Assembly (NCBI GenBank): GCA_019694735.1
Contig: JAIBBJ010000074.1
Location: 1-58,161 of the forward strand
Direction of reading: 5' to 3'
DNA from: Gemmatimonadaceae bacterium
GTDB taxonomy: Bacteria; Gemmatimonadota; Gemmatimonadetes; Gemmatimonadales; Gemmatimonadaceae
Length of the DNA: 58,161 bases
Shown here: positions 1 through 4,441 of the stretch, one piece after another
Layout: each line of letters starts with the position of its first letter
Numbering within the stretch: position 1 is the stretch's first letter
Translations under genes and position numbers: made by a program
Notes under the pieces: model-generated
Databases searched by the model: none
Told to the model about the DNA's origin: nothing
What the model saw: only the letters and a program-made list of their open reading frames with translations

Positions 1-182
1 TCTGGGCGCTCATCGCCGAGGGGCGCACCAACGTGCAGATCGCCTCGCAGCTGGCGCTGTCGGAGAACACGGTGAAGTTCCACGTCCAGCACCTGTTCCA
101 GAAGCTCGGCGTGAAGAACCGCACCGAGGCGGCGCTGCGGCACGGCAAGTCGGGGCGCCCGGGCGGGCCGCCGCCGCGCTGA
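1..182 (+). CDS. LuxR/NarL-type response regulator, C-terminal fragment
   Basis: The gene is cut by the left edge of the window; only about 59 C-terminal residues remain, read from base 3 to the TGA at 180-182. They form a LuxR/FixJ-type helix-turn-helix: a first helix with IAEGRTNVQIA, a second with LALSENTVKFHVQHLFQKLGV, and the usual NRTEAA end. The NTVK(x)HV recognition helix and the KLGVKNR segment are hallmarks of the NarL/LuxR DNA-binding domain. A short Gly/Pro-rich tail follows. Any receiver or sensor domain lies outside the window. It runs toward the end of the Calvin-cycle operon, so it is convergent with prk and not necessarily its regulator. Confidence 0.85.
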   Translation, partial: WALIAEGRTNVQIASQLALSENTVKFHVQHLFQKLGVKNRTEAALRHGKSGRPGGPPPR

Positions 183-207: not shown

Positions 208-1164
208 TCAGGCGAGCGCGGGCTCGCCGACGCCCTCGGTCTGCTCGGCCAGCGCGCTCGCCTGCACGAGATAGTAGGTCAGCAGGAGCTGCGTCAGCGC
301 GAGCGTATGCGATCGCCGCTCGCCCTGCGCGTCCTGGAACCGGCCGAGACGCTCCACGTGCAAGGGCCCGGCCGGGGCGATCTGCCGGTGGAGACCCGCC
401 TCGATCCGCTCGGCGGTACAGGCGTCCAGGGCGCCGTCGATCGCGAGATGGGTCACGCCATCGGAGCGCCGCTCGACGCGCAGCGCGTCCGCGGCCTCCC
501 CGGCGAGGAGCTCCTCGAGGTCCGGGAGCGGCACCGGGTGCGCGATGCGCAGGTGCACGTCGAGCTGCGCATCGTCGCGCAGCCGGCCGTCGGCGGGCGC
601 ACGGAAGGCGATGACGAGGTCGGCGCGATCCCGTTGCGGTGCGATGTACGCCGCCGCGTCGGCACGACGGGCCTCGAGCTCGCGCTCCACGGCGGCGCTG
701 TCGTAGCCGCGGCGCGCGGTGTCGCGGCGGCGCTTCCACGCATCGCGCAGCGCCGGGTCCGGGTCCACGAAGACCGAGACGTCCCACAGCGCGCGGAGTT
801 CCGGCGTGTAGAGCGCGTGCAGTCCCGTGGCGAGTACGATCGGGGCGGGCCGCACGAACTCCGGCGCCCCGAAGGTGCCGTGCGCATGGTCGTAGGTCGG
901 CTTGAAGATCGTCTCGCCCTGCCGCAGCAGGCGGGCGTGCTGTCCCATCAGCGCGAGATGGTTCGCGTCGGGATGCAGGGCGGTGAGCCCCGCGGTCGCC
1001 CGCCCCGCGCGGTCGAGCCGGTGGTAGTCGTCGAGGCACAGGGGCGTCACGCGCGTGGGGCCGAGCAGTTCGGCGCATCCGCGGGCGAGCGTCCGCTTGC
1101 CGGCGCCGGAATCGCCGACGACCGCGAACATGATCGGGCGGCGCGCGCGGAACGGCATCGTCAC
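208..1164 (-). CDS. prk: Phosphoribulokinase, class II-like
   Basis: Phosphorylates ribulose 5-phosphate with ATP to ribulose 1,5-bisphosphate, the RuBisCO substrate. The 318-residue protein has a P-loop GDSGAGKRT (residues 17-25), the [10 protein letters not shown] motif (43-52), LTALHPDAN (60-68) and [11 protein letters not shown] (83-93). These match the cyanobacterial/plant/archaeal class II enzymes better than proteobacterial class I. The plant regulatory Cys16 position is Ala21 while the Cys55 position is Cys43, so plant-type disulfide control is unlikely. The usual EGLHP motif reads ATGLHA (112-117), losing the Glu. The GTG start at 1164 overlaps the cbbX stop (GTGA); ATG at 1158 is an alternative. 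It is the last gene of the cbb operon. A uridine-kinase-like relative is possible, but the context argues for PRK. Confidence 0.86.
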
Positions 1165-2087
1165 TCCTCCCGGAAGACGCGGCTCGCGCGCACGTCGGCG
1201 GCGTCGATCCGCCGCAGCTCGTCCACCGCGACGCGACCGGCCGAGGCGAGGAGCCGGCTCGCCTGCCGCAGCTTGATGCGGTCGATCGCGTTGCGCATGG
1301 ACCGCGCATTGGCGAAGTGGGGCTGGCGCATCCGCCGCGCGATGTACTCGCGGAACGCCGCGCGCGACCCGTCGTCGAAGCGGTACTGCTGCTGGGCCAC
1401 CATCCCTTCGGCGATCGTCATGAGTTCGTCGGCCGAGTAGTCGGGGAACTCGAGGTGGTGCGCGATGCGGGAGTGGAAGCCCGGGTTCGAGCGGAAGAAG
1501 GTGTCCATCCGGTCGCCGTAGCCGGCGAGGATCACCACGAGGTCCTCGCGGTGGTTCTCCATGACCTGGAGGAGCATCTCGATGGCCTCCTGCCCGTAGT
1601 CGCGCTCGTTCTCCGGCCGGTAGAGGTAGTACGCCTCGTCGATGAAGAGCACGCCGCCCATCGCGCGCTTCACGACCTCCTTGGTCTTGGGGGCGGTATG
1701 GCCCACGTACTGACCGACGAGGTCGTCGCGGGTGGCGACGACGAGGTGGCCCTTCCGCACGTAGCCCAGGAGATGGAGGATGCGCGCCATGCGCATCGCG
1801 ACGGTGGTCTTCCCGGTGCCTGGGCGCCCGGTGAAGCTCATGTGCAGCGTGGGCCGCTCGGTCTGGAGGCCGGCGCGCTCGCGGACCTTGCCGAGCAGCA
1901 GCAGGCCGGCGATCTCGCGGACGCGCTCCTTCACGGGCCGCAGGCCGATGAGGTCATCCTCCAGCTGCGCGAGGGCCTCCGCGACCGGGGTCTCGCGGAT
2001 GGCGGCATCGAGGTCCACGTAGAGCGGCGCCTCCGGCGCTGCCGCGCCGGGGCCTCCCTCGGGCGTGGGCCGCTCGGCGGCGGTCAC
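1161..2087 (-). CDS. cbbX: Red-type RuBisCO activase CbbX
   Basis: AAA+ motor that remodels inhibited red-type RuBisCO, pulling on the large-subunit C-terminus to free bound sugar phosphates. The 308 residues show a Walker [10 protein letters not shown] (87-95), the pore-loop segment [10 protein letters not shown] (about 126-135), Walker [12 protein letters not shown] (about 145-155), and later AGYGDRMD and the [11 protein letters not shown] arginine-finger region, all typical of CbbX. The first 35 residues are a variable Pro/Ala-rich tail. The GTG start at 2087 overlaps the cbbS stop by GTGA, and its own stop overlaps the prk start in the same way, so cbbS, cbbX and prk are probably translationally coupled. 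Presence of CbbX supports assignment of the neighbouring RuBisCO to the red lineage. Confidence 0.95.
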
Positions 2088-2512
2088 GTCCGCGGCGCGT
2101 AGCGCTGGCCGGCGGGCTTGTCGGTCGCGTACGCGATCGTGGAATACCGCACCTGGCGATCGGCGCCCTCCTCGCGCACGAGCCGGAAGCCCGGCTCCTC
2201 CGCGGGGCGCTGCACGATGAACGAGATCGCGGTCGTCTGCCGACCGAGCCGGCGGTCATAGCCGCTGACCCGGACGTAGACCTCGGGATGCGCGCGGCGG
2301 CAGGCCGCGAGCTCGAGCATCACCGCGGCGGCGTCCTTCACGTCGAACATCGGGTTGCCCCACATCTCCCAGTAGTAGTTCCGGGGATGCGGGTCGTCGG
2401 TCCATTCGATGGAGATCGGCCAGTCGTGGTCCAGGCAGTACTGCACCTGGGCCCGGATCTCGTCGTCGGTCAGGTCGGGCAGGAAGGAGAAGGTCCCCTG
2501 GGTCACGCGCAT
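2084..2512 (-). CDS. cbbS: RuBisCO small subunit, red type
   Basis: Small subunit of form I RuBisCO, capping the L8 core. At 142 residues it begins with the red-type N-terminus [19 protein letters not shown], followed by the conserved [21 protein letters not shown] segment, the [11 protein letters not shown] motif and VRVSGYD. The longer C-terminal extension (about residues 105-142), which in red-type enzymes forms a beta-hairpin lining the central channel, is present. It lies 15 bp downstream of cbbL and overlaps cbbX. Green-type (IA/IB) small subunits differ in the N-terminal segment and lack this tail. Confidence 0.95.
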
Positions 2513-2527: not shown

Positions 2528-3982
<1,455 letters not shown>

Positions 3983-3988
3983 TCAGGG

Positions 3989-4012
3989 CTCCTTGACCGC
4001 CCGTGGGGCGGT
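3989..4012 (-). promoter_or_regulatory. cbbL ribosome-binding site with an adjacent hairpin
   Basis: On the minus strand AAGGAG (3989-3994) lies just before the cbbL ATG. One base upstream sits a perfect 7-bp hairpin (arms 3996-4002 and 4006-4012, loop of three bases). A stem this close could limit ribosome access or pair alternatively with the GC-rich terminator hairpin further upstream. The pairing is visible; the regulatory role is inference. Confidence 0.5.
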
Positions 4013-4020
4013 GGGGGCAG

Positions 4021-4055
4021 AAAAAAGGCGCGGGCGGACGGGCGCCCCCCGCGCC
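4021..4055 (-). terminator. Intrinsic terminator-like hairpin in the cbbL leader (possible attenuator)
   Basis: On the minus strand GGCGCGGG (4055-4048) pairs perfectly with CCCGCGCC (4034-4027), with a 13-base loop, and is followed at once by six T (4026-4021). This is textbook intrinsic-terminator architecture. It lies 38 bases upstream of the cbbL start and points toward cbbL. No minus-strand gene lies immediately upstream that it could terminate, so transcription attenuation of the cbb operon is the simplest reading. Confidence 0.65.
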
Positions 4056-4114
4056 CGCCGCCGCGCAACTGGTTCCGGTGCCCGATCGCTCAGGTCGTTC
4101 CCCAGCTGGACCAC

Positions 4115-4120
4115 AGTCTA
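4115..4120 (-). promoter_or_regulatory. Candidate -10 element for the cbb operon
   Basis: TAGACT on the minus strand fits the TANNNT pattern seen at other starts in this window. It would give a transcript start near 4108 and a leader of about 126 bases containing the terminator hairpin. A 10-bp palindrome CGCCTAGGCG (4144-4153) lies about 24 bases further upstream, near the expected -35 region, and could be an operator. No convincing -35 hexamer is visible. Confidence 0.35.
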
Positions 4121-4224
4121 GGACCGGCCCTCGCTGCACAGAACGCCTAGGCGGATGGACCAAGGACCACCCTATCGGGTGGCCGGACGTCGGGGCGTAC
4201 CCTAGGGGACCTGCGCCGCCACGA

Positions 4225-4259: not shown

Positions 4260-4356
4260 GTTCCAGGTCCCGGAGGGCTTCGGCCCGCCAACTCCGCCAG
4301 GGCCGAAAGGCAGCAACGGTACGTGGTGTCCATCGTCGCTCCGTCAGGCCTGGAAC
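4260..4356 (+). ncRNA. ffs: Small bacterial signal recognition particle RNA (4.5S type)
   Basis: RNA component of the signal recognition particle; it binds Ffh and directs nascent membrane proteins to FtsY. The 97-base segment begins GTTCCAGG and ends CCTGGAAC, forming a perfect 8-bp terminal helix. The apical part holds the conserved domain IV pattern: CCAGGGCCGAAAGGCAGCAA (about 4297-4316), with the GGAA/GAAA-type tetraloop and the AGCAA asymmetric internal loop read by the Ffh M domain. Its place directly before dnaX matches the scr-dnaX-ybaB-recR order known in Bacillus and other phyla. The ends are set by the terminal helix and the upstream promoter and could be off by a few bases. Confidence 0.9.
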
Positions 4357-4441
4357 ACTCGCGCGGGTGAGCACCGATCCGGGGCTCCCCGCGCGAGGCA
4401 TTCCGGCCCCGGCGCGCCGAGCGCGGGGCACCGCCGGGCAG

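Follow-up and report, generated by a model that had tools for sequence, protein, structure and literature searches.

Knowledge of how RuBisCO operons are controlled comes mainly from Proteobacteria, where CbbR exerts this control, and in CbbR-controlled operons cbbR usually lies divergent to cbbL. In Cupriavidus necator, transcription of the CbbR-controlled cbb operon is reportedly also terminated prematurely inside the operon, after the RuBisCO genes. Among leader attenuators, that of the Corynebacterium glutamicum ilvBNC operon is presented as a three-hairpin model with several interacting hairpins (PMC11857589). In Gemmatimonadota, RuBisCO of form IC/ID has been described (PMC10581226).

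The window, the whole 58,161-nt stretch of DNA analyzed here, belongs to a Gemmatimonadaceae assembly of 3.52 Mb in 226 contigs (97% complete, 72.7% GC). Its initial annotation placed a transcription attenuator in the leader of a Calvin-cycle operon, in which a second hairpin could compete with the first, and found no CbbR. The comparisons below support a conserved leader hairpin with the form of a terminator, and point to the promoter as the more plausible site of the main switch.

The cbb Operon and Its Leader

The operon cbbLSX-prk lies on the minus strand, and its upstream neighbors are divergent. The features of the locus are as follows.

3..182, plus strand: C-terminal end of a NarL/LuxR-type response regulator (stop at 180-182), convergent with prk and cut by the contig end
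208..1164, minus strand: prk, phosphoribulokinase (PF00485, NF005655)
1161..2087, minus strand: cbbX (TIGR02880)
2084..2512, minus strand: cbbS (PF00101)
2528..3982, minus strand: cbbL, form I RuBisCO large subunit
3989..3994, minus strand: Shine-Dalgarno AAGGAG of cbbL
3996..4012, minus strand: second small hairpin ACCGCCC-CAC-GGGCGGT, adjoining the Shine-Dalgarno
4021..4026, minus strand: T6 tract, the U-run of the terminator-like element
4027..4066, minus strand: GC-only leader hairpin of 16 bp with a GGGGG loop (fold and covariation with SJ530)
4115..4120, minus strand: predicted -10 TAGACT of the cbb promoter
4139..4144, minus strand: predicted -35 region GTTCTG, common to SJ530 (weak, position inferred)
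4167..4182, minus strand: CCACCC-N4-GGGTGG dyad, candidate operator
4262..4357, plus strand: small SRP RNA (RF00169), divergent neighbor
4455, plus strand: dnaX, divergent, the upstream neighbor beyond the SRP RNA

Two further RuBisCO-family proteins (514 and 428 residues) are encoded in the same genome, at G000:C212:4512-5771 (L002, L020) and G000:C93:68887-69783 (L003, L021).

Ahead of cbbL the minus strand reads GCGCGGCGGCGGGCGC-GGGGG-GCGCCCGTCCGCCCGCGC-C-TTTTTT-CTGCCCCC-ACCGCCCCACGGGCGGT-C-AAGGAG-CCCTGA-ATG. In its compact form the hairpin is an 8-bp GC-only stem (GGCGCGGG, 4055-4048, paired with CCCGCGCC, 4034-4027, minus strand). The six T (4026-4021) follow directly 3' of this stem, 38 nt from the cbbL ATG at 3982, and the re-check reproduced the coordinates first assigned to both. 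The minimum-energy hairpin has 16 pairs (4066-4051 with 4045-4028), two bulges, and an energy of -34.7 kcal/mol; in the fold computation its core has a pair probability of 0.99, and it is predicted to form once the 3' arm has been made. In a simple terminator scan, this hairpin and T6 site was scored in a variant form with 5 pairs. The element has the form of an intrinsic terminator, with a GC-rich stem of at least 5 bp, a T-rich tract directly after it, and an orientation that is sense to cbbL, as originally described. It was also correctly noted that no minus-strand gene lies upstream for it to serve, the SRP RNA and dnaX both being on the plus strand.

The best candidate for a -10 element is the predicted YCTAGACT, which precedes cbbL in four Gemmatimonadota (the window, L022, L036, and L043). 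It lies upstream of the hairpin, so that transcripts from it would run through the hairpin. The cbb transcript would start near 4108, giving a leader of ~125 nt and a terminated RNA of ~90 nt. The hairpin would therefore fall within the leader, in agreement with the initial annotation, on the strength of a conserved -10 and a start that are both predicted.

Conservation of the Leader Hairpin

A cbbL search over 288 genomes of the order identified five that carry this cbbL. SJ530 (G426, locus L022) is the only same-genus genome among those five, with a cbbL identity of 93% and the same arrangement as the window, SRP/dnaX followed by cbbLSX-prk, with no same-strand gene upstream. In the alignment of the two leaders, three of the 14 consensus pairs show compensatory changes (G-C to A-U), one changes from G-C to G-U, and none is broken; the six-G run (GGGGGG) that holds the hairpin loop is identical. 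Column shuffles folded as well as the hairpin alignment in 9 of 2000 cases, a covariation result drawn from two sequences only, the window genome and SJ530. Covariation with no broken pair indicates that selection has probably maintained the leader hairpin as an RNA structure. The window genome and SJ530 each contain a single exact copy of the hairpin core, located at cbb, and an origin from a dispersed repeat was rejected on this ground.

The conservation does not extend to the adjoining elements. At the position of the T6, SJ530 has CTCCCCTCTCC, and the leader alignment contains no SJ530 counterpart of the second hairpin (4012-3996). Of the paired segments and T tract whose conservation in relatives was initially proposed as a check, the hairpin is thus kept, with covariation, and the T tract is not, in the one relative compared. 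More distant relatives have no comparable terminator-like cbbL leader. Terminator-like leaders account for 3 of the 69 cbbL leaders examined, and a strong hairpin before a T run is present only in the window; such a leader was therefore rejected as a general feature of cbb operons. The distance from YCTAGACT to the ATG is 138-140 nt in the window genus and 39-53 nt in L036 and L043, which places the hairpin within extra leader sequence observed in the window genus alone.

Another hairpin of the locus, directly after the SRP RNA (window ~4358-4400; genus loci L114-L124), keeps its stem across the genus with a T tail that ranges from TTTTTT to GCATTCC.

Rarity of the Hairpin and T Tract

Rarity was assessed over 356 kb (the window and 298 kb more, L138-L152), corresponding to 712 kb of strand. 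Both strands together contain four runs of at least five T, two of them T6, and the T6 of the cbbL leader is the only one behind a hairpin below -30 kcal/mol. Random positions of the window genome end a hairpin of -30 kcal/mol or better in 0.8% of cases. Across 94 leaders the best hairpin has a median energy of -24.6 kcal/mol, with about one in ten reaching -34. The leader folds taken by themselves give modest dinucleotide-shuffle z-scores (-0.9 to -2.1), as expected at such a high GC content. In the window genome, neither energy nor T content sets the hairpins near 3' ends apart from those in leaders, and a hairpin by itself is therefore no mark of a terminator. The genome seems nearly devoid of U-tract terminators; with canonical ones almost absent, their use in this organism is unproven. 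What distinguishes the cbbL leader is the combination of hairpin, T6, and hairpin conservation, not fold energy alone.

Terminator, Attenuator, or Other Element

The reading we tentatively prefer, at a little under an even chance, is that this species carries a leader terminator or brake whose foundation is a conserved hairpin specific to the genus. The strong terminator-like hairpin would stop a fraction of the transcripts from the cbb promoter ~90 nt after their start, before cbbL. Its base would be a hairpin kept by the genus as RNA structure, which the species-specific U6 would turn into a canonical terminator. Such a hairpin would most likely set a ceiling on operon expression, and the promoter would be where the operon is turned on or off, probably through action of the neighboring NarL-type two-component system on the CCACCC-N4-GGGTGG dyad. 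The sequence features, their rarity, the covariation, and the repeated occurrence of dyad and regulator are observed, whereas we infer transcription start, termination, and any regulation of termination from sequence.

The folding results bear on whether such a brake would be regulated. When the terminator hairpin is forbidden, the best alternative fold of the leader is 9.8 kcal/mol worse, and the fold computation gave no mutually exclusive antiterminator within that range. This penalty gives no support to classical attenuation through a competing antiterminator and supports a simple partial terminator. An Rfam search of the leader returned no known RNA family or riboswitch, a match to ncS01 being far below the cut-off. 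A leader peptide was considered in the frame from a GTG near 4114 to the TGA at 3983, which abuts cbbL, and was rejected; SJ530 has no counterpart. As SJ530 shares neither the T tract nor the second hairpin, and as evidence for an antiterminator, a ligand, or a leader peptide was not found, it is unproven that the element acts as a regulated attenuator. The attenuator initially proposed thus survives as a sense, terminator-like leader hairpin, and the suggested competition by the second hairpin is unsupported, that hairpin being energetically uncompetitive as well as absent from SJ530. The SJ530 stem, having no U-run, must act otherwise or terminate less canonically.

The main rival, somewhat doubtful but a serious contender, makes the conserved hairpin a 5'-UTR element that serves mRNA stability or translation, and the T6 an incidental variant of a pyrimidine tract. 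Retention of the hairpin but not of the T6 in SJ530 is consistent with this, as is a ~25-nt G-poor, pyrimidine-rich stretch that runs from the hairpin to the Shine-Dalgarno in both species (CTTTTTTCTGCCCCCACC / CTCCCCTCTCCTTCCCCTCC). However, T runs of five or more are so rare (4 in 712 kb of strand) that a T6 at the foot of the stem would be an odd accident, and a stem of this kind followed by U6 should cost transcripts. It is unlikely that the hairpin is instead a terminator with a degenerate tail, ending transcripts in both species with or without factors such as Rho. The variable tail after the SRP RNA would provide a precedent at that RNA's 3' end, and Rho is encoded in the genome, but the likeness of leader and 3'-end hairpins in energy and T content counts against this explanation. 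Slightly less probable still is chance, a well-folding GC-rich sequence next to a chance T run: strong hairpins are common at 72.7% GC and the single-sequence shuffle z-scores are weak, but the SJ530 covariation (9/2000 column shuffles) and the uniqueness of the hairpin with T6 argue against it. An insulating terminator against read-through from upstream minus-strand transcription, which the orientation would fit, is very improbable, with upstream neighbors on the plus strand and a predicted promoter upstream of the hairpin that would expose the operon's own transcripts as well.

A NarL-Type Regulator and a Promoter Dyad

The partial terminator or brake that we prefer would leave the main switch to the promoter. 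CbbR was not found in the window genome; its two LysR-type proteins match NhaR and BsrA best and fall far below the CbbR cut-off, though at 97% completeness a cbbR gene may have been missed. The earlier statement on CbbR accordingly holds, neither LysR protein being CbbR-like, but the lack of a regulator that it implied is misleading, as a NarL-type gene adjoins prk. The end of this gene sits 25 nt from prk, and contig C61 of the same genome matches the first 127 nt of the window exactly and carries the remainder of the regulator.

Related regulators (GerE domain) with a HisKA_3 kinase lie beside cbb in SJ530, in G303 from another family, in G160, and in an Anaerolineales locus (L051); G101 has a more distantly related regulator and a kinase fragment there. 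Genus members that lack cbb still have the regulator next to the SRP RNA. It may therefore be an old neighbor within the genus, which weakens its link to cbb there. That it is merely an old neighbor of the SRP RNA was rejected, since other families have it next to cbb as well, at loci that showed no SRP RNA neighbor. Pairs of a NarL-type regulator and a HisKA_3 kinase occur ~6 kb or less from cbbL at many Chloroflexota and Actinomycetota loci (L027, L033, L034, L040, L050, L053, and L067-L088).

The dyad at 4167..4182 is the only exact copy in the window genome. Elsewhere it precedes cbbL in exact form at L022 (4119-4134) and L109/L159 (L159 6987-7002), with one mismatch at L043 (127 nt before cbbL), and with two at L051 (5840-5855). 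G303 has one exact copy and SJ530 two. About 2.6 copies per genome are expected from base composition alone, so it is the location of the dyad that counts, not its number. The dyad is present at five of the six loci that have a subfamily member as regulator versus two of the 63 others (Fisher p = 1e-5, uncorrected for relatedness and for a motif chosen after some of the loci had been seen). This ties the regulator to the dyad by association and makes the dyad a candidate operator. The NarL-type two-component system acting at the dyad is probably the more plausible main switch.

The second SJ530 copy (L160 6231-6246) immediately precedes a gene for cytochrome c oxidase subunit II, which suggests a shared respiratory/redox regulon. 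In the cbb promoters of Oscillochloris and Kouleothrix (L027, L033, L034, and L023), a GGTGATTTCCATCAC-like dyad unlike that of Gemmatimonadota lies ~80-110 nt before cbbL.

It is tempting to speculate that in a Gemmatimonadota lineage and at least one member of the Anaerolineales a NarL-type system at CYACCC-N4-GGGTRG, not CbbR, controls the Calvin operon, and that one genus added a leader terminator hairpin as an RNA-level brake. We regard this wider scenario as possible but rather unlikely as a whole.

Comparison with Known Systems

A terminator in the leader of a Calvin operon, together with a conserved two-component system and promoter dyad standing in for CbbR, would provide a concrete, testable model for the switching of CO2 fixation in Gemmatimonadota and some Chloroflexota. 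The case also illustrates a genome nearly without U-tract terminators. Titles and abstracts, with few subscription papers among them and hence as weak evidence, yielded no paper evidently describing such an operon with a terminator in its leader or under NarL-type control.

The cbbL leader resembles intrinsic (Rho-independent) terminators in its GC-rich stem with a U-run directly after it, placed in the 5' leader before the Shine-Dalgarno. It differs from intrinsic and attenuator terminators in that it yielded neither an antiterminator nor a leader peptide nor a ligand domain, and in the absence of the U-run from the SJ530 counterpart. Hairpins precede a biosynthetic operon here as in C. glutamicum ilvBNC; in contrast to the interacting hairpins of that model, the second hairpin here is neither conserved nor competing. 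With the terminator that is said to act in the C. necator cbb operon, the element shares a terminator-like structure limiting cbb transcripts, but the former is intra-operonic and combined with CbbR, whereas the latter lies in the leader. CbbR (LysR-type) control has the same target operon. In place of CbbR, which was not found in the window genome, a NarL-type regulator stands beside the operon, with a different dyad at the promoter.
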